Shown here in pieces: positions 243 through 9,021 of a stretch of DNA of 35,277 nucleotides. Below the pieces are notes generated by a model. It was given only the letters and a program-made list of their open reading frames with translations, was not told the DNA's origin and did not search any database. The first letter of the stretch is position 1; each line of letters starts with the position of its first letter. The DNA is from a virus, in IMG/VR virus record IMGVR_UViG_3300010885_029889, positions 1 to 35,277 of that record, one strand, 5' to 3'. The position numbers were made by a program, and so were the translations under genes.

Positions 243-671
243 TTAAATTTTGTTTTTGATGTGACTACCATGTATACGGCAAACTATCTGTCCGTTGTAG
301 TAGTCATCTGACTCTAGTACTCTATGATTAAATTGTTCTCTAGCTTCTATATAACTGCATTCGGCTTTTGATTTGCAATAAAATAATATTTCTCTTGTGA
401 AGTTGTCTGCGCCTTGCGCTAGAATGTCTTTGTTGAGTTGATCGTTGCTTCCATAGTATAGCTGCCAGTCTGAGTTTATTTTACTTCTGATTTTCTTGCG
501 CTTCTTGTTGCCGTTCTTTAATTTTACTACTTTGTACGTTGTCTTACTAAATTTTGCTAATTTTTTCCCAATATATTTTCTACCGGTTAGTTTATTTGTA
601 ATCAAATAAACAAAGCCGATGCAATCGTCGGGTAATGTTTCAATTTGTGTGTTTTCGTACAGCCATACCAT
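243..671 (-). CDS. GIY-YIG-like endonuclease
   Basis: This 142-residue protein has the layout of small GIY-YIG nucleases. Residues 19-24 (GFVYLI) and 33-35 (YIG) form the two-part signature, with Tyr22 and Tyr33 in the tyrosine positions. A lysine/arginine-rich stretch (50-64) is followed by SDWQLYYGSND (67-77), a block I associate with GIY-YIG-like proteins of T4-like phages. Arg93 and Glu109 are candidates for the catalytic arginine and metal-binding glutamate, and Asn126 follows Tyr-Tyr. It is the last gene of the leftward run, 18 bases after the second radical SAM gene. There is no obvious Shine-Dalgarno sequence before its ATG. It may be a free-standing homing nuclease or a phage DNA-processing enzyme; the sequence does not say which. 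The family call is fairly sure, the role is not. Confidence 0.72.
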   Translation of the reverse strand: MVWLYENTQIETLPDDCIGFVYLITNKLTGRKYIGKKLAKFSKTTYKVVKLKNGNKKRKKIRSKINSDWQLYYGSNDQLNKDILAQGADNFTREILFYCKSKAECSYIEAREQFNHRVLESDDYYNGQIVCRIHGSHIKNKI

Positions 672-689
672 GGACTAGTAGTTATCACA

Positions 690-1721
690 TTACCACTCTG
701 TTGCATATTTTTCATCTACCTTATGTGCTGCACACTTAGTTTGGCATTCTTGCCACTCAAATCTTTTAAAATTTTCTTCCCAAAATGGATCAGTTACAAC
801 ATCGGATAAATTCTTAGTGTTCAAACTAAACAAGGTTGCAATAGTTTGCCATTCTTGATTATGCGAATATCTATTTGCCACCCAACAACACGGAAACAAT
901 CTGCCCTGTGCATCAATATACAGGCCTTTGTTGCCAATTTCGCATAACGGTTTAACATTATTGATTTCTTTTACCGACTTGTAAAGCTGTATATTCTTCT
1001 CATTTATCTGTGAATTTGGCCCACGTGAGCTTAACGGTATAACATCTCTTTCAAATCTAAGCGAGCCGCTAACAAACTTTTTACTGGGTTCAAGCGGATC
1101 ATCGTTGCCGTAACTGGGATAGACGGTTCCAAACTTGGTGCTTTTCGTTAATTGAAACGCATCCATGCCCAAGGACAGGGCTAAATTTTTCATGTGATCT
1201 ATGCGATCTTCGTTAAATTTAAATGCAATAGCGGCCCATACTAACCGACAGTTACTGTTGTCTCTTAGTGCTTCAATTCCAGCAACAATACTGTTAAAAT
1301 CACTGTTTACTCGATATAAATTGTTGCTGTCATTGTCGTAGCCATCAACGCTAAAATGTACAGTATCCTGCTCAGTAAGCACACTGCCTAACTCGCGCCA
1401 CCATTCTGGTTTTTTGTGTGACCCATTGGTAACAATAACAATCTCTACAGGTTTCACGCTTTTAATATAACTGATCACAGGAATGAGATCGTGAGCATAG
1501 ATAGGGTCACCGTCGTCGCCACAGAATGTAATTTTTTCTACATTGCTGTTGATAAATTCTGGAGTGAAGTTACGTTCAAAGAAAGCCAAATCTAGTTCTG
1601 TGTTGACAAGCCCATTGGGTACTTCTTGTCTAGCACAGCGTGGACAACGTAAGGTACACTTTGAACTGATTTCAATATGAAAATGCCAAGTAGCTAACAT
1701 AGTTGTGTTTCTCTTTGCCAT
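690..1721 (-). CDS. radical SAM protein with C-terminal cysteine cluster (SPASM/twitch-like), copy 2
   Basis: The 343-residue product carries the radical SAM iron-sulfur signature CxxxCxxC at Cys22, Cys26 and Cys29, at the start of the barrel. CGDDGDP follows, in the place of the SAM-binding GGE motif. The C-terminal third holds a second cysteine set: a Cys before GLYIDAQGRLFPCCW, and a final CQTKC. This layout is typical of SPASM or twitch domains, which bind an extra cluster in peptide- and protein-modifying members. It overlaps the end of the upstream paralogue by 28 bases if Met1 is used. Met8 at 1700 is an alternative start with a weak purine-rich site (AAAGAGAAA) upstream; Met1 has none. 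The C-terminal layout matches the neighbour, so the two arose by duplication or act as a pair. The substrate is unknown. Confidence 0.85.
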   Translation of the reverse strand: MAKRNTTMLATWHFHIEISSKCTLRCPRCARQEVPNGLVNTELDLAFFERNFTPEFINSNVEKITFCGDDGDPIYAHDLIPVISYIKSVKPVEIVIVTNGSHKKPEWWRELGSVLTEQDTVHFSVDGYDNDSNNLYRVNSDFNSIVAGIEALRDNSNCRLVWAAIAFKFNEDRIDHMKNLALSLGMDAFQLTKSTKFGTVYPSYGNDDPLEPSKKFVSGSLRFERDVIPLSSRGPNSQINEKNIQLYKSVKEINNVKPLCEIGNKGLYIDAQGRLFPCCWVANRYSHNQEWQTIATLFSLNTKNLSDVVTDPFWEENFKRFEWQECQTKCAAHKVDEKYATEW

Positions 1722-2560
1722 TGATTGGTGAAGCTGGTTTTATTTTTGTTACTAGAACAAGAGGTCTGACACACTGGATTTGGTGTGTCTGTTTTCCAAG
1801 TTAATTTTACAGTTTTTAAATCGTCTGTGATAAAATCTTGTTGTCTAGCACCTAACCAGCAACAAGGACTCACACGTCCTTGAGCATCTATATACATGCT
1901 TTTTTCTTTGAGCACATGACATTTTATAGGTCCCTGCTTGACCACAGGCTCTTGCCAGCCGATCGGAAATTCCAATCGATCAGTGAAACCACGTTTGCTG
2001 ACCTTGGCACGGAACCACTTAAAGCCCATGTCACGGGCCAGTTGTTCACAGGCATCTACTTGATGTTGATTGTGTTTGTAAACCAACATGTCCCAGTGTG
2101 CTGACCCGCCTGCGGCAATGTATGCTTGGGCATTGCTCATTAGTTTTTCCCAGTTTACATTTTTACGGTAAACATGATTGGTATCTTCTAATCCATCAAT
2201 ACTGAACACACAATAATCGTTAGGTTTATTAAATAGTTTCCCTAGAGCGTGCCAAAAGAATGTGCTTTGTACAGCACCATTGGTATTCATGCCTAGTGTA
2301 ATTTCTGGATTGACTTGTCTGAAATAGTTATAGATATCCATGGTGTAATATCCTGCAGCAGGATCGCCATAGTCACCACACATAAACATTTTTTCCAATT
2401 TAGATATTACTCGATCTGAAAAATGTTTCTGTATGTGTTCTATTCTAAGATGGTGTTTTGCATTTTTATTAAAATTCTTGTCAGTTTCTCTAGCACACAT
2501 AGGACATGCGGCTTGACAAACATCTGTGGGTTCGATGTGAAGTACTTGGAGTCTACGCAA
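1694..2560 (-). CDS. radical SAM protein with C-terminal cysteine cluster (SPASM/twitch-like), copy 1
   Basis: The 288-residue product has CxxxCxxC at Cys15, Cys19 and Cys22 near the N-terminus, followed by MCGDYGDP in the SAM-binding position. The C-terminus has a Cys in IKCHVLKEK, then MYIDAQGRVSPCCW, then VCQTSC, the same order as in the following gene. The family does one-electron chemistry with S-adenosylmethionine and a 4Fe-4S cluster. The extra cysteines suggest an auxiliary cluster. The start appears to be TTG, overlapping the last 8 bases of the gp46 gene, so translation is probably coupled. It is shorter than its partner by about 55 residues. Peptide modification is a guess from the SPASM-like tail; no precursor peptide gene is visible nearby. 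Confidence 0.83.
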   Translation of the reverse strand: MRRLQVLHIEPTDVCQAACPMCARETDKNFNKNAKHHLRIEHIQKHFSDRVISKLEKMFMCGDYGDPAAGYYTMDIYNYFRQVNPEITLGMNTNGAVQSTFFWHALGKLFNKPNDYCVFSIDGLEDTNHVYRKNVNWEKLMSNAQAYIAAGGSAHWDMLVYKHNQHQVDACEQLARDMGFKWFRAKVSKRGFTDRLEFPIGWQEPVVKQGPIKCHVLKEKSMYIDAQGRVSPCCWLGARQQDFITDDLKTVKLTWKTDTPNPVCQTSCSSNKNKTSFTNQWQRETQLC

Positions 2561-4316
2561 TTTCTATATCCGTGTTGTATGAAGTAAAGCCGCCTTCTTT
2601 AACTACTTTAAGAATATTTTCAACTCGACCAGACAGTTCATCTCTATGACTAACTAACCAAATACTCTTGTGACGTTCACGACTCATTTGTTTTAACAAT
2701 GCCAGAGCATTTTCTACACCGGCTGTATCCAAGCCGTTGTCAATCATTTCGTCTACAAACAACAAATTGATAGGCTGATACAGGCTTTCAAACACATCAC
2801 GGAATGCCCAGCTCATGCTTAGGATCAATCGATTGCGCTCGCCGCGACTTAAATTATCAAAGTCTAACTCTCTGCCTAACTCTTCGATGCTGACAGTTAG
2901 GTCATTTTGGAACACCACAGTATGCGGTAAGCCTACACGATCTAAATAGTGTGTCAGTCGAGCATTTAAATAGCTAAGATTTTGTTCAATAATCTTTTTA
3001 CGGATAAAGCTGTCTTTGCTTGTGAGTAATTTAAGCAAGAAATCTTGATGTTCTTGTAAGCGAGTAAGCTCATTAAGTGTGTCATATGTTACCTCCTTTA
3101 GGGCTTGTTGTTGCATCTCCGTAATTTGTTCTGCATACGGATCTGTTTCTGTTTGTTTAGTAGCAATCTGTTGTTCTAAGTTAGTCAATGTGGCTTGATG
3201 ATGTACCGCATCACTTTCTTTATCGTAGAACATCGTGGGCGGTTTGCCTAACGTGCCCAAGGATGTGTGGGCAGTCTCCAACTCTGATAACAAGGCGCTA
3301 AATTCTGTGCCGCTCTGTTGAGCCGTAGCCAACTCTGTCTGCTTGCTTTCCAAAACTTGTTCGTGCTTACTGTCGTGGAAGGCCTGTCCGCACGTATGAC
3401 ATTCATGGTTCTTGAGAGTCTCAATTTCTTTTGATAGTTTGGTTGCCAGTTTTTCTTCCCGCCCAACATCCAATTTGACACGCGAGATCTGACTTGATAG
3501 TTCGTTGATATCCTTGCGCTTTTGATCCCATATCTTATGGTCTTTGTGCGCTTGGATCTCACTTTCAATCTGTATATTCTGTAACGCCTTAAGAGCTTTC
3601 TCAAGTTCCGTGATATCTTCGCCATGTTTGGTAATCCATAATGTTTGTCTGCGCTTTAAACTTTCTATTTGCTCTTCAATACGCTTATTAGCTTCCTGTT
3701 CAGCACGAATACGAAATTCTTCTTGTGTAATTGCGTCTTTGGTCTGTTTGTTGTGTTCTTTAATTCTGTCAGCACGTTCACTCAACATGGTGATTCCAAG
3801 TAATTGCTCAATGATAGTACGTTGATCATTGGCCTTGAGACTCAGAAACGGTTCTGTGTAAGTATTCAATGCCAAAATATGTTTGAACATGTCGTGACTT
3901 AGTCCCAACACTTGCTCAATGGCTTCTTGTGTTTCTCTGCTGTCGCCCTGTGCTTCGTCGGTGACCTGTTGTTCTTGGTTGTTTACATAAAAGCGCAATA
4001 GATTTGGTTTGCGACCACGTTCGATACGATATTCTTTGCCGCCAACAAGAAAATCTAAACTGACCAACATGTTCTTGCCGTTGGTTTTGTTAACCAAATT
4101 ATCTTTACGTATGTTACTCAGGGCTTGTCCGTAAAGACTATAACTCAATGCATTGATAATGGTTGTTTTGCCTGTACCGTTGCGACTGCCGTCACCACCT
4201 AGGTCTAAATTTTCACCCAACACCAAGGTTAGATCAGTACGGTCAAAGTCAATTGCTTGTGTGCTATTACCCACACTCATAAAATTTTTAACAGTAAGAT
4301 TTTTAATTTTTATCAT
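2553..4316 (-). CDS. 46: recombination nuclease ATPase subunit (gp46, SbcC/Rad50-like)
   Basis: This is the ATPase half of the phage Mre11/Rad50-type nuclease, which works with gp47 in recombination-dependent replication and DNA end processing. From the ATG at 4316 it has 587 residues, close to T4 gp46 (560). The N-terminal Walker A is GSRNGTGKT at about 43-51, preceded by a glycine-rich insertion. Long coiled-coil arms surround a zinc-hook CHTCG (Cys306, Cys309). The C-terminal ATPase half has the signature LSRGE near 489, Walker B LLFVDE near 518, then a D-loop GLD and a switch His in SHRDEL. An in-frame ATG at 4355 has a better ribosome site (AAGAGA) and would add 13 residues, but the usual family start fits 4316. 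It overlaps the upstream gene by 14 bases. Confidence 0.93.
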   Translation of the reverse strand: MIKIKNLTVKNFMSVGNSTQAIDFDRTDLTLVLGENLDLGGDGSRNGTGKTTIINALSYSLYGQALSNIRKDNLVNKTNGKNMLVSLDFLVGGKEYRIERGRKPNLLRFYVNNQEQQVTDEAQGDSRETQEAIEQVLGLSHDMFKHILALNTYTEPFLSLKANDQRTIIEQLLGITMLSERADRIKEHNKQTKDAITQEEFRIRAEQEANKRIEEQIESLKRRQTLWITKHGEDITELEKALKALQNIQIESEIQAHKDHKIWDQKRKDINELSSQISRVKLDVGREEKLATKLSKEIETLKNHECHTCGQAFHDSKHEQVLESKQTELATAQQSGTEFSALLSELETAHTSLGTLGKPPTMFYDKESDAVHHQATLTNLEQQIATKQTETDPYAEQITEMQQQALKEVTYDTLNELTRLQEHQDFLLKLLTSKDSFIRKKIIEQNLSYLNARLTHYLDRVGLPHTVVFQNDLTVSIEELGRELDFDNLSRGERNRLILSMSWAFRDVFESLYQPINLLFVDEMIDNGLDTAGVENALALLKQMSRERHKSIWLVSHRDELSGRVENILKVVKEGGFTSYNTDIEIA

Positions 4317-5046
4317 AGTTTTTTTGTTTTCGATATAGCATTGATTCAACTGCATCAATATCTCTTGAATCTCTCCAAGGTAAATCTACAACTGGCATAA
4401 CAAATTGTTTAATAAAATCAAATTGAATCAGCGGAATTGGTTGCGGATATCCAAAATCTAATTCACAATATTCACTTTGATATCTAAATTCGTGCATGCC
4501 TTGTTGTTCACAATGCCAAATCCAATTGCCATTGATGCCAACCTGCTTGGCAGCACTGGTCAACATAAATCCGTAATCAATTTTTTTCTGTTCAAGTAAC
4601 AGCATAGCATAATCAATGTACAATTGCGACCTCAACTCGTGCTGTCTTGGCGAAATGAATTTGTTATGATATTCTCTTACTTCTTTAATTTTTGATCCAC
4701 TGGACAACCACATTTGATCCGGACCAACGTTGACAATGTTATTGTTGTACACCGGATCGCTGGCAATGGCATCTGTCCAATTGTACTGATTGTGAACAAT
4801 CAAATCTAATCTATTGGCCTGCGCCCATTGTATTAAGACACAGTCTTTATCATCAACATTGTTACGCAAACTGTTTACAATGTATTCGTTTCCGGCACCA
4901 TATCTGGACAAATTTGTTAATTCAACACCACGGGTCATTAACTTAATAATTTCAGGCCATTTGAAATAGTCAGGATACCCGTTGGGATATATCGAGTTGT
5001 CCCCGTATCCGTCAGCAATAGTTAATAATTTTATTGGTGTAACCAT
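4303..5046 (-). CDS. SGNH-hydrolase-like protein of unknown function
   Basis: The 247-residue product starts with KLLTIADGYGDN, followed by NLSRYGAGNEYIVNSL and DCVLIQWAQANRLD. This resembles the first three blocks of SGNH/GDSL hydrolases: a strand ending in GDS, a Gly, an Asn, then a strand and turn. The expected nucleophile serine after GD is not present; the equivalent region reads ADGYG, so activity as an esterase is doubtful. No signal peptide or membrane segment is seen. It lies between the two subunits of the gp46/gp47 nuclease, overlaps the next upstream gene by 16 bases and the gp46 start by 14, so it belongs to the same transcript. The fold call is an inference from motif order, and its role in infection is unknown. 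Confidence 0.5.
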   Translation of the reverse strand: MVTPIKLLTIADGYGDNSIYPNGYPDYFKWPEIIKLMTRGVELTNLSRYGAGNEYIVNSLRNNVDDKDCVLIQWAQANRLDLIVHNQYNWTDAIASDPVYNNNIVNVGPDQMWLSSGSKIKEVREYHNKFISPRQHELRSQLYIDYAMLLLEQKKIDYGFMLTSAAKQVGINGNWIWHCEQQGMHEFRYQSEYCELDFGYPQPIPLIQFDFIKQFVMPVVDLPWRDSRDIDAVESMLYRKQKNYDKN

Positions 5047-5843
5047 TTTGTTATTTGATCTGTATTTGTAAAAAAGTTTTCAAAATCATTATGCGGAACT
5101 TCTTTACCAAACTCTAGCCATATGAAATAATAGATTACAGCTTGAGTCCAAATGTCTGTAATGCTAGTTAAATCAGAATCTTCTAATTTTTTAATTTTGT
5201 TAATTATCTGCTGTGCCTTGGATACAGATACAAAATATTGTTCGTTGTTTGTGTACCATTCGTTCCAAAGCCCTTTGAACTCGTCCAACTCAACACCAGC
5301 CGACGCAATGGCATTTTTTAAAGTAGCGTAGTTGAGCATTGATTCGACTGTGACACAGTTGACACTTGACTCGGCTTGCCAGGCATGTCGTAAATGATGA
5401 TCACGTAAGAATAAAAAATATTTTTCTCGTTGTGCCCAGGGCTCTGCAGATATCCACAAGTCTGGGTCTACTTTTATTTCAGATTCTATAGATGATCGCA
5501 TGGCCTTATCAATCATGGTCTTTGCAACCACGGGCCATGATAGATCAGCATAGCACAATTTGATAATTGTGGCGCCCGGAAACGACTGCATAAAATCACG
5601 GCTATCGGAGTTGATTCCTAAATCTACCAGTACACTATAGTTGTAATTGGAATCAAAATCATAATGATAGTTTGTAGTTTCTGCTGTGTACTTTGGAGCA
5701 GTAAGTTCTAGATTGTGGCTATCTCCAGTCGTGCTGAATTGTATCTTATTAGCAGGCCGTTTAAAATCTTTACCGTGTAAAGTTAAAATGCCGTTAATAA
5801 AATGTCCAAAGCCACCACTAGGGTACCAGACACAATAGATCAT
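5031..5843 (-). CDS. unknown protein with glycine-rich N-terminal loop, between gp47 and the SGNH-like gene
   Basis: I do not recognise this 270-residue protein with confidence. It begins MIYCVWYPSGGFGHF, a strand followed by a glycine-rich turn that could be a nucleotide- or PAPS-binding loop as in sulfotransferases. A downstream strand-like segment, FPGATIIKLCYADLSWP, would suit an alpha/beta fold. The C-terminal half is helical and acidic, with many aromatic residues. No signal peptide or membrane helix is evident. Its ATG overlaps the TGA of gp47 (ATGA), which marks coupled translation, and its own end overlaps the SGNH-like gene. The placement inside the nuclease operon is notable, but no shared function can be shown. 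A transferase-like fold is only a suggestion. Confidence 0.6.
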   Translation of the reverse strand: MIYCVWYPSGGFGHFINGILTLHGKDFKRPANKIQFSTTGDSHNLELTAPKYTAETTNYHYDFDSNYNYSVLVDLGINSDSRDFMQSFPGATIIKLCYADLSWPVVAKTMIDKAMRSSIESEIKVDPDLWISAEPWAQREKYFLFLRDHHLRHAWQAESSVNCVTVESMLNYATLKNAIASAGVELDEFKGLWNEWYTNNEQYFVSVSKAQQIINKIKKLEDSDLTSITDIWTQAVIYYFIWLEFGKEVPHNDFENFFTNTDQITKWLHQ

Positions 5844-6853
5844 AAATTTTGATATATTTTCAACAATAACTTAGGATCGTAAAACTCACTTTCAATATTG
5901 GTCAATTGATCAGTGACAATTTGATCAACACTTTCAAATTTTACTTCTCCTGGTGCTAGGTCTAAATCTATAGAATTATTTTTAACTGGTATCAAGGCCA
6001 TTTCACGTAAATTGTAATCCTTGACAAAGGTATCTTTGATAAAGTTAGCTTCTTCGTAACTGATATCAATGTCTAACTCCACACGTACATGCATGTTAGG
6101 TACCAATATCTGTGGAGCCGAATCAATAACTTGACTCAATTTGAGCACACGATACAAGGGTTGTCCTGGCCAAGCAAAGTATTGATCTTCTTTGCCCCAT
6201 TCTTTGATCATCATACCACGTTCGCTATCGCCGGCATCGGCATAGTTGTGTGGAAAACAATTGCCAATATAATTGATATTCTTTTTTTGTTGACGCAGAT
6301 GAAAGTGACCCGAGTATACGCTTTCTATACCGCCAAAGTTTTCTACTTTGAGTTCACCGTGATCTGGCATTTCTACCATGGCATTCATTTTAAAGTGCGG
6401 CAACTCAAAATGGCCAAACATATACTTGGCTGTCATCTTGGCCAGTTTTTTATGATCGTCACCAACCAACCAAGGCGCAATAATAACATCGCCATCTTGG
6501 AAAAAGTCATTGACGATTTGTATGTTTGGAATGTGCTTGGCCCATTCGGTTGAATAGATATCACGCTTGTCTCTATAATACAAATCGTGATTGCCAGGAA
6601 TAAAGTAAAAACGATCAAACGCCGCTGACAGTTTTTCTAAACTGCGCAAACTGTACTGCAAGGTCTGCATGTTTATGGCTGCACGTTGGTGGCTCCAATC
6701 GCCAAGGAACATGCCGGTTTCGCAACCGTTAGCTCGGGCTGTGTCAATAAACCAATCAATGAAATTGGAGCAATCCTGATTGTGTTGTAGGCTATTTGAC
6801 TTTAGGCCAAAGTGGATGTCGGTACACACTGCTACTTTTTTAAATAGACTCAT
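5840..6853 (-). CDS. 47: recombination nuclease subunit (gp47, SbcD/Mre11-like phosphoesterase)
   Basis: This is the metal-dependent nuclease half of the gp46/gp47 complex. The 337 residues match T4 gp47 (339). The calcineurin-type phosphoesterase motifs are all present in order: Asp12-x-His14, Gly51-Asp52, Gly87-Asn88-His89-Asp90, and SGHFH at 181-185. The start is the ATG at 6853, seven bases after a TATACT -10 box, so the RNA may be nearly leaderless. The stop TGA overlaps the next start as ATGA. In T4 and many relatives gp47 and gp46 are close neighbours; here two unrelated genes separate them. It shares the leftward run with gp55 but appears to have its own promoter. Confidence 0.95.
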   Translation of the reverse strand: MSLFKKVAVCTDIHFGLKSNSLQHNQDCSNFIDWFIDTARANGCETGMFLGDWSHQRAAINMQTLQYSLRSLEKLSAAFDRFYFIPGNHDLYYRDKRDIYSTEWAKHIPNIQIVNDFFQDGDVIIAPWLVGDDHKKLAKMTAKYMFGHFELPHFKMNAMVEMPDHGELKVENFGGIESVYSGHFHLRQQKKNINYIGNCFPHNYADAGDSERGMMIKEWGKEDQYFAWPGQPLYRVLKLSQVIDSAPQILVPNMHVRVELDIDISYEEANFIKDTFVKDYNLREMALIPVKNNSIDLDLAPGEVKFESVDQIVTDQLTNIESEFYDPKLLLKIYQNL

Positions 6854-6898: not shown

Positions 6899-7813
6899 TT
6901 AAGTTTCGTTATTGTATTCGGCGATATCAATATTTGTAACAACAGAACCAAAGTTGGGATTCTTTTTACCAGCGTTCTGCCGTGTCCACGACGGATTAAG
7001 CCCGGCCTGCTCCAACATGTCATCACGAATGTTTTGATTTTTCTTTTCTAAATTCAATATACGAGTAAAGCTATTAGTAATAGCCGCTGTATAATAAGCA
7101 AAAGGATTTTGCGATTTACTTTCATCAAACTGCAAACCAATCTGGCTCAACTGTAACAAGGCTTGTCCACGCATTTCTTCATTATAAGTGTAACCACGCC
7201 AGTTGCTGCGAGTGGCATAGCGTTCACACAGTTTCATGTACATGGTTGCCAGTGTACGTGTGGCCTGACCATGATCCTTGCTAAACTGACCGTTCTCAAA
7301 ATCACCAATCCAATGACTTTTGCCCACCTGGAACGGCTGTTTGTTTTCATCTAAACGATAGTGATAAAACGGCGGAAAGTTCAAACGAACATGTTTTTCA
7401 TCTAAGACTGGAATATCCAGCAATTCAGCCAAAGGGTCGTCTTCCTCGATCAATTCAAGTTCAAAAATATCTTCAATTTTTTTCTTTTTTGCCGTTGTTT
7501 TTGATACTTTTTTAGGTGCCATTGGTATGTGATCCCAACAAGTAATTCTAAACACCAAGTCAGTATTTGGAATCTTTTTTGGGTCAACTATAACACCCTC
7601 TCGCTTGAATCTGTCTGCGCGATTTCGTCTTGCTTCGGCAATGGTACGTTGATTAATTTTAGCAAGACTGGGCAAAATGATATCATACTGGTGATCCGCT
7701 ACAGGATCGGTATATGTACAGTAGGTATTTTTGCTTAGGTGTATCTGTTTTAAGATATCTCTGTTGTTGAGATAGTTTGTTTTTGCTGGTGTTCTGGTGG
7801 GTGTAGTTGACAC
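6899..7813 (-). CDS. 55: late-transcription sigma factor (gp55-like)
   Basis: The C-terminal half matches the late sigma factor of T4-like phages: a sigma region-2-like stretch with GYTYNEEMRGQALLQL, NPFAYYTAAITNSFTRIL, then EKKNQNIRDDMLEQ. gp55 binds host RNA polymerase core and recognises TATAAATA-like late promoters. I place the start at the GTG at 7813, because AGGAGA lies 7 bases upstream; a longer open frame upstream lacks such a site and would run through the promoter. The product has 304 residues, against 185 in T4. The extra length is an N-terminal region with a lysine-rich stretch (KTTAKKKKIED) and an acidic segment (ELIEEDDPLAELLD), roughly residues 95-135. Late-promoter-like sites in this window support the call. 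Confidence 0.82.
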   Translation of the reverse strand: MSTTPTRTPAKTNYLNNRDILKQIHLSKNTYCTYTDPVADHQYDIILPSLAKINQRTIAEARRNRADRFKREGVIVDPKKIPNTDLVFRITCWDHIPMAPKKVSKTTAKKKKIEDIFELELIEEDDPLAELLDIPVLDEKHVRLNFPPFYHYRLDENKQPFQVGKSHWIGDFENGQFSKDHGQATRTLATMYMKLCERYATRSNWRGYTYNEEMRGQALLQLSQIGLQFDESKSQNPFAYYTAAITNSFTRILNLEKKNQNIRDDMLEQAGLNPSWTRQNAGKKNPNFGSVVTNIDIAEYNNET

Positions 7814-7820
7814 TAACGAA

Positions 7821-7826
7821 TCTCCT
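7821..7826 (-). promoter_or_regulatory. ribosome binding site that fixes the gp55 start
   Basis: AGGAGA on the minus strand, 7 bases before the GTG at 7813. No comparable site precedes the upstream in-frame ATGs, so this decides the start. Confidence 0.75.
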
Positions 7827-7838
7827 AATAGTATATTT

Positions 7839-7866
7839 ATTGTAGCACAAAAACCACAGGTGTCAA
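7839..7866 (-). promoter_or_regulatory. strong sigma-70 type promoter for gp55 and the leftward run
   Basis: On the minus strand TTGACA (7866-7861) and TACAAT (7844-7839) are 16 bases apart, nearly the bacterial consensus. The expected RNA start lies about 20 bases before the GTG, leaving room for the AGGAGA site. The -10 overlaps AATAAATA, so a late-type site may be superimposed. Confidence 0.75.
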
Positions 7867-7900
7867 CCTTTATATCATTATCTGGGTGGTTTATTTTAAC

Positions 7901-7908
7901 CATAAATA
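7901..7908 (+). promoter_or_regulatory. T4-type late promoter candidate before the baseplate run
   Basis: CATAAATA differs from the T4 late consensus TATAAATA at the first base only. It lies 21 bases before the ATG at 7930. The 12 bases ATAAATATTACA recur at the gp6 late promoter. An AGGA at 7914-7917 may be the ribosome site. Confidence 0.65.
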
Positions 7909-7929
7909 TTACATAGGACAAAGCAAACA

Positions 7930-9021
7930 ATGGCAATTAACACCGCACCGGAACCAGTAAACCCACAAGTAGACCCAGAGGCTTCGTTAAGTGCTGGCGA
8001 AACAATTGTATCGGAAGCTGATGTACAAAGAAGTGCAACCCCGGTTAGTCCTACTTCTGCTGTTGGCTACGGTGATGAACCAGCAGGAACCGGTGATCAA
8101 TATACTACAGACAGTTTAGGTAATACATTTAAAAACGGCTCGCTATATCGCGCGGCCGAGGTTGACGACGCCACCGGCCGCCCGTTAAACAGCACACAAA
8201 GCGAAGTAACAACAGGGGTTATCCAAGCCAATAATCAAGAAACCAATTCTAATCTATCTCAAATGCCGGTCAACACTGATTGGCGTGTGACTCTAAGATT
8301 GGCACCCAATGCAAGTTACCTGTACAAGTCCAGCAATGCTGGCCTACTGGAACCATTAAAAAACACCAATGGAGTAGTATTTCCTTACACTCCTTCTATC
8401 AATACCAATTACAAAGCCAACTACAACACATATGATCTTACACATTCAAACTATCGTGGGTATTTTTATCAAAATAGTTATACTGATGCGGTGAGTCTAA
8501 ACGCAACATTCACAGCACAAAGCACCAGCGATGCAGCCTATGTGTTGGCTGTGATTCACTTCTTCCGCAGTGTGACCAAAATGTTTTACGGCCAAGATGC
8601 CCAGCGTGGTAGTCCTCCGCCATTAGTATTTTTAAGCGGACTAGGCGATTATCAATTTAACAATCATCCTTGCTTGGTCACCAATTTTAATTATGTACTA
8701 CCAGCCGATGTTGATTACATCAGTTCTGGAAGTCCCAACAATCTGGGTTTAAATTTACAGCCCTTGCAAAATTTATACTCCACTACACTAAATGCTGTGG
8801 CGCCAACTGTAACTAGACTGGCCACTGCATTCTTACCACCTGGCGCACAAAATGCTGTTCCTGCACCACTACAGGCTTTATTAAGCAACCCCACTTATGT
8901 ACCGACTAAAATGGAAATGCAAATTAGTTTGTTACCAGTTCAAAGCCGCAGTCAAGTTAGTAAACAATTTAGTCTTCAGAATTTTGCCAATGGCAATTTA
9001 CTTAAAGGAGGGTTCTGGTAA
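7930..9021 (+). CDS. 48: baseplate tail-tube cap-like protein (gp48-like)
   Basis: The 363-residue product has nearly the length of T4 gp48 (364). The conserved-looking core runs from about residue 140: VVFPYTPSI, then LTHSNYRGYFYQNSY, then LAVIHFFRSVTKMFYG near 206-221, then PPPLVFLSGLGDY and HPCLVTNFNYVLPADVDY. I associate these blocks with gp48 or its relative gp54 in T4-like phages; both sit where tail tube meets baseplate. The first 110 residues are low-complexity, rich in Ser, Thr and Pro, and probably flexible. It is the first gene of the rightward structural run, just behind a late promoter. Its stop overlaps the start of gp53 (TAATG). A gp54-like role cannot be excluded. Confidence 0.65.
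   Translation: MAINTAPEPVNPQVDPEASLSAGETIVSEADVQRSATPVSPTSAVGYGDEPAGTGDQYTTDSLGNTFKNGSLYRAAEVDDATGRPLNSTQSEVTTGVIQANNQETNSNLSQMPVNTDWRVTLRLAPNASYLYKSSNAGLLEPLKNTNGVVFPYTPSINTNYKANYNTYDLTHSNYRGYFYQNSYTDAVSLNATFTAQSTSDAAYVLAVIHFFRSVTKMFYGQDAQRGSPPPLVFLSGLGDYQFNNHPCLVTNFNYVLPADVDYISSGSPNNLGLNLQPLQNLYSTTLNAVAPTVTRLATAFLPPGAQNAVPAPLQALLSNPTYVPTKMEMQISLLPVQSRSQVSKQFSLQNFANGNLLKGGFW
9004..9011 (+). promoter_or_regulatory. near-perfect ribosome binding site for gp53
   Basis: AAAGGAGG lies 9 bases before the gp53 ATG and inside the end of the preceding gene. It is the strongest ribosome site I saw in the structural run, suggesting independent, high translation of the small wedge protein. Confidence 0.8.

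Follow-up and report, generated by a model that had tools for sequence, protein, structure and literature searches.

Radical SAM genes are already known to be abundant in T4-like phages and to occur there in cassettes (PMC5332604, PMC2853527, PMC7029224). T4-like viral genomes rich in these genes have been reported from the environment (PMC5332604), the Campylobacter phages CP220 and CPt10 carry radical SAM modules (PMC2853527), and in pelagimyophages radical SAM cassettes lie with glycosyltransferases in the tail-fibre host recognition cluster (PMC7029224). The cassette described here, consisting of two genes that we refer to as rSAM-A and rSAM-B (A and B), is contained in a 35-kb virus record, a fragment of 35,277 nucleotides called the window below. 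As in the pelagimyophage and environmental systems, the setting is one of T4-like phages with variable cassettes and radical SAM genes near glycosyltransferases and tail fibres, but the A/B cassette has its place in the gp46/SegE interval, where loci with other cargo, loci with none, and reassortment can be told apart. The CP220/CPt10 modules are similar in being exchangeable and in combining multiple radical SAM genes with amidinotransferase and NDP-sugar-transferase-like genes; in CP220 itself there are five radical SAM genes, an amidinotransferase gene and two NDP-sugar-transferase-like genes, near the baseplate lysozyme. However, the similarity between CP220 and rSAM-A is only 27% identity over 76% of the protein. 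What is new is how this cassette slot is built and that it can be vacant, that A and B reassort, and that a tail-fibre-linked array in related contigs keeps a conserved gene order.

The features of the locus are listed in Table 1. A and B overlap by 28 bp, B overlaps gp46 by 8 bp, and A is separated from SegE by 18 bp, which bears out the initial annotation in its description of a gene pair overlapping each other and gp46. The replication and recombination setting that it assigned is also evident from the neighbouring gp46, gp47 and gp55-like sigma factor genes, with late transcription represented too. Of 29 relatives, 22 share the TTG start of B at the aligned position; for A, the 20 relatives checked all start with ATG or GTG. 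Two further cargo genes lie in the gp47/gp46 interval; the product of the first is without a Pfam match and is related to slot family C2 (hhalign probability 93), whose own Pfam match is DUF6071.

Table 1. Coordinates of the radical SAM gene pair and of the genes that frame it in the window.
Feature	Coordinates	Strand	Remarks
SegE-like GIY-YIG endonuclease	243..671	-	PF19835, 111.5 bits; downstream boundary of the cargo slot
SegE leader TGTGATAACTACTAGTCC	672..689	-	Cargo junction; present, in variant forms too, whether the slot is filled or empty
rSAM-A	690..1721	-	Radical SAM protein, 343 aa, ATG start, ORF intact
rSAM-A twitch-like cysteines C260/C278/C326/C330	within about 732-944	-	From alignment
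rSAM-A CxxxCxxC	about 1635-1658	-	Radical SAM motif
rSAM-B	1694..2560	-	Radical SAM protein, 288 aa, TTG start, ORF intact
rSAM-B twitch-like cysteines C214/C233/C264/C268	within about 1757-1921	-	From alignment
rSAM-B CxxxCxxC	about 2495-2518	-	Radical SAM motif
gp46-like recombination nuclease subunit	2553..4358	-	Upstream boundary of the cargo slot
gp47/gp46-slot cargo, weakly SGNH-hydrolase-like	4303..5046	-	SGNH label is a motif reading of low confidence
gp47/gp46-slot cargo, second gene	5031..5843	-	hhalign probability 96 to slot family C3
gp47-like recombination nuclease subunit	5840..6853	-	Frame gene
gp55-like late sigma factor	6899..7936	-	PHROG 12791, E 4.5e-71; frame gene

Both proteins pass the Pfam Radical_SAM model (PF04055; 35.5 bits for A and 30.1 bits for B, cut-off 29.5), and both just fail the SPASM model (PF13186; 20.7 and 17.8 bits, cut-off 21.5). 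Seven cysteines in each, C22-C26-C29 with C260, C278, C326 and C330 in A, and C15-C19-C22 with C214, C233, C264 and C268 in B, are invariant in alignments of 38 A-type and 44 B-type sequences, as well as in a mixed alignment of 15 diverse members. The C-terminal four are spaced as Cx17-18C, a variable gap, and then Cx3C in the A and B alignments, and the second cysteine of the PCC motif is not invariant among the 15 members of the mixed alignment. The SPASM domain is defined by a seven-cysteine motif with two auxiliary clusters, and the twitch domain is a truncated SPASM-like domain with four cysteines, such as those of BtrN and SkfB, which hold a single auxiliary cluster. Because the auxiliary cysteines of A and B number four, one auxiliary [4Fe-4S] cluster of the twitch type is predicted for each, rather than the two of SPASM; this cysteine count implies that both proteins are twitch-like, and presumably that the cluster forms. 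The CxxxCxxC motif and C-terminal cysteine set noted in the initial annotation are thus present in all aligned sequences, with no loss of the auxiliary cysteines across relatives. Its designation of the proteins as SPASM-type is correct in recognizing an auxiliary-cluster-type C-terminus, but the SPASM label itself is too strong, and we reject it given the scores under the cut-off and the four invariant auxiliary cysteines.

An NCBIfam scan of A and B gave no model near its cut-off, and neither protein has a known equivalog with a house-keeping role. Scores are far under the cut-offs for MoaA (TIGR02666; 34.1 bits for A and 19.1 for B, cut-off 284), PqqE (TIGR02109; 21 bits for A, B not listed, cut-off 381), prokaryotic viperin (NF038283; 26.1 bits for A, B not listed, cut-off 180) and all peptide-maturase models. 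With N_Twi_rSAM (NF033640), scoring 23.3 bits for A and 36.1 bits for B against a cut-off of 170, the two proteins share the twitch-type radical SAM architecture, and many copies of this family are present in related contigs; however, A and B are shorter proteins that align only to the central portion of the model, and their extra cysteines are C-terminal.

AlphaFold2 gave confident models, with mean pLDDT values of 91.2 for B and 89.0 for A. The solved folds ranked best by Foldseek for A include viperin, BlsE, DesII, MoaA, SuiB and SkfB, with viperin structures at the top; those for B include BlsE, SuiB, SkfB and MoaA, with BlsE as the best solved neighbour. BlsE is a nucleoside-sugar enzyme, and viperin, BlsE, DesII and MoaA all act on nucleotides or nucleotide sugars. 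These rankings are weak guides to substrate, since at TM-scores of roughly 0.45-0.6 they mostly reflect the barrel that all these enzymes have. A and B have the radical SAM barrel in common with BlsE, BtrN, SkfB, MoaA and viperin, but the structural alignments show low identity, about 12-20%, and a common substrate is at most a candidate. Searches of PDB with phmmer using the single proteins yielded nothing useful; a sequence profile had the peptide maturase SkfB as its top PDB match (5.1e-7).

The A and B family is mainly viral. Scans of viral contigs confirmed 141 relatives of B and 194 of A, the best 80 being retained each time. These numbers and the low pN/pS ratios (0.20 for A and 0.14 for B, with 0.13 for gp46 as comparison) exclude chance, and both genes are under purifying selection. 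The only named phage records matched are those of the Campylobacter phages CP220 (two records) and F379, and of Pelagibacter phage Mosig. Among bacterial genome contigs, the search with the A alignment recovered two relatives only, both in Bdellovibrionota MAGs and with 31-37% identity; the mixed alignment was too variable throughout to supply a conserved stretch for scanning genomes. In one of the MAGs, from a Bacteriovoracaceae member, the A-type relative adjoins a convergent N_Twi radical SAM gene (L222:4801-6953); nearby are a desaturase gene and weak matches of TauD-like and asparagine-synthase-like type, none of which settles the substrate.

Comparison of related loci shows that A and B are optional, exchangeable cargo of large T4-like phages represented by environmental contigs from lake water. 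The frame gp55-gp47-gp46-SegE is recurrent, with variable genes between its members. The A-type and B-type genes are found between gp46 and SegE, arranged as gp46-B-A-SegE; the B-like radical SAM genes of the gp47/gp46 interval are more distant (26-32% identity to B). Loci were fetched with a gp46 seed to lessen seed bias, leaving 59 after dereplication. The slot holds A and B together in seven of these, A alone in seven, B alone in five (one with another radical SAM gene), some other radical SAM gene in 18 and non-radical SAM cargo in 12, and is empty in ten. The other cargo found in the same frame includes sulfotransferase, AMP-ligase, methyltransferase-like, 2OG-oxygenase-like and SDR proteins. 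One such slot (L096:3094-7368) encodes an AMP-binding enzyme identified by Pfam, together with receptor-like and Rieske-dioxygenase-like genes recognized by the look of their sequences alone. In the ten empty slots the gp46 stop is 10 to 46 bp from the SegE start, and most contain the leader ATAACTACTAGTCC or a variant of it; in the window such a leader directly follows A. The slot comparison parts the fixed genes of recombination and late transcription from the exchanged ones, which encode enzymes.

The two linked genes had initially been read as a possible heterodimer or two-enzyme pathway, and an obligate arrangement of this kind would fit with their fixed order between gp46 and SegE, their overlap, and a co-occurrence above chance (odds ratio 8, one-sided Fisher p = 0.004, n = 59). 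It is nonetheless disfavoured, because A and B are members of separate clades that reassort: they form two fully supported groups in the tree, with A near Mosig and bacterial sequences (a placement made unsure by long branches) and the CP220 proteins on a separate long branch. Loci with just one of the two are common (A in 7/59, B in 5/59), and the slot may be empty. Among loci with all four genes, moreover, the A-B distance correlation is weak (rho 0.08, n = 37; 0.23 in a stricter set, n = 33), against 0.62-0.65 for B and gp46; that for A and SegE is 0.43. The two genes are thus neither always present together nor evidently co-evolving, and an obligate heterodimer or fixed two-step pathway is improbable. 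A recent tandem duplication is likewise not supported by the tree, and the genes look as if they were brought together. A loose functional link between them is possible because their co-occurrence exceeds chance.

The broader gene company was determined in 12 related contigs of 81 to 344 kb that were searched for Radical_SAM, each of which has between 6 and 21 such genes. N_Twi copies above the NF033640 cut-off are present in all 12, and all four scanned proteins of one array pass. Array pieces were taken from 11 of the 12 (G001-G011; L215-L220 and L225-L230); G012, an 83-kb fragment with no array in the Radical_SAM search, was left out. The order NTwi1, NTwi5, NTwi2, NTwi3, NTwi4 recurs in all 11, with extra genes interposed in some, and the company in these 11 includes glycosyltransferase-like genes; this assignment, like those of SGNH and amidinotransferase genes in the array, comes from motif reading, and the proteins of these kinds sent to Pfam gave no match. 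A carbamoyltransferase gene, whose product passes its Pfam model, follows the array in ten, with the remaining one (G008) reaching the contig end, and a full-length DegT sugar aminotransferase is near the array in ten contigs. Tail-fibre-like genes lie directly upstream in L215, L219, L220, L225, L227 and L230, and the pieces L217, L218, L226, L228 and L229 do not show them; a collar domain match is just under its cut-off (21.3 bits, cut-off 24). The array is known from relatives, the window being a 35-kb fragment, and the A/B slot itself does not adjoin it; in a single contig an A/B-type gene is inside the array (L219:11503-12489). In Mosig, an A-type relative is near tail fibre genes, a DegT aminotransferase, a carbamoyltransferase and a GT8-like protein that is just under its cut-off. 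This Mosig gene is split into two overlapping reading frames (Mosig_00084 and Mosig_00085; L232:8956-9922), a split that may be genuine or the result of a frameshift in the sequencing.

This gene company points more to tailoring of glycans or nucleotide sugars than of peptides, and the reading we prefer, tentatively and at slightly less than an even chance, is that A and B are sugar or glycan tailoring enzymes for decoration of the virion or host surface. Cleavage of SAM at the CxxxCxxC cluster would yield a 5'-deoxyadenosyl radical, and this would take a hydrogen off the substrate, while the auxiliary cluster would hold that substrate or serve as acceptor or relay of an electron. The most likely substrate is a sugar, either nucleotide-activated or bound in a glycan. 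The tailoring step could be an oxidation, epimerisation, deoxygenation or decarboxylation, and the product may then decorate tail fibres or the host surface via a phage pathway. The main rival is that A and B resemble RiPP maturases and modify a protein of phage or host encoded elsewhere; tail fibres, for instance, might gain thioether or C-C links or have some of their residues epimerised. Auxiliary-cluster C-termini are common among peptide-modifying radical SAM enzymes, SkfB is the top profile match in PDB, and SuiB and SkfB rank high among the folds for B. However, neither protein reaches any peptide-maturase cut-off, the neighbours in relatives belong to sugar and small-molecule tailoring families, and the gp46/SegE slot contains no precursor gene and has no room for one, since its genes overlap and only 18 bp lie between A and SegE. 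The initial annotation had likewise seen no precursor, and its suggestion of a phage-encoded modification system aimed at a host or phage protein survives in part: a peptide or protein target is a less likely but realistic prospect, with the gene company favouring glycans or nucleotide sugars.

Three other functions appear much less probable. Viperin-like counter-defence or antiviral-type enzymes acting on nucleotides, which might exclude competing phages, are suggested by the viperin structures that head the fold ranking for A and by the optional, swappable nature of the cargo, a typical trait of conflict genes; but A falls far below the prokaryotic viperin cut-off (26 bits against 180, with B not listed) and both proteins bear an extra four-cysteine C-terminal set, making such a role quite unlikely. 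A part in DNA base hypermodification, for which phage-encoded radical SAM steps are known, would be consistent with the carbamoyltransferases and glycosyltransferase-like genes of relatives, yet the thymidylate synthase/hydroxymethylase family is absent in 10/12 contigs and the tailoring genes cluster near tail-fibre-like genes. There was also no Tet/JBP match, a weak indication given that the positive control gave none; we set this role aside as poorly supported and a shade less probable still. The least probable is a contribution to host metabolism or cofactor synthesis, for example of PQQ for methylotroph hosts. A PQQ role has been proposed for the radical SAM genes of Lake Baikal T4-like viruses, where T4-like methylotroph viruses carry them with PqqA and methanol dehydrogenase (PMC7678222). 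However, no gene in the 12 contigs reaches the PqqE cut-off of 381 (best 25.1 bits), there is no match to PQQ alcohol dehydrogenase or to PqqA (the latter a weak result, its positive control having given none), and the cysteine pattern of A and B is not that of SPASM; the PqqE, PqqA and PQQ alcohol dehydrogenase searches lend poor support to PQQ biosynthesis.

The preferred reading of sugar or glycan tailoring can be extended to a more speculative and rather unlikely scheme of combinatorial surface chemistry in large T4-like phages. Here the conserved tail-fibre-linked array, with about five twitch radical SAM genes and with glycosyltransferase-like, carbamoyltransferase, amidinotransferase-like and sugar aminotransferase genes, would build an unusual glycan on the tail fibres or host surface, and swappable A/B-like cassettes in the gp46/SegE slot would diversify it. 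Literature searches found no papers on radical SAM together with phage carbamoyltransferase and tail fibre, or together with DNA hypermodification. The array provides a concrete, testable site at which to seek the product of the many radical SAM enzymes of these phages. Two genes that are amidinotransferase-like by motif (L085:578-1795 and L216:2582-3601) are without a Pfam match, and a further gene, u361, also recurs within the N_Twi array. In several contigs a small gene, u101 (for example L215:2786-3091), is positioned directly after the tail-fibre-like genes and could encode a chaperone or a target of modification.
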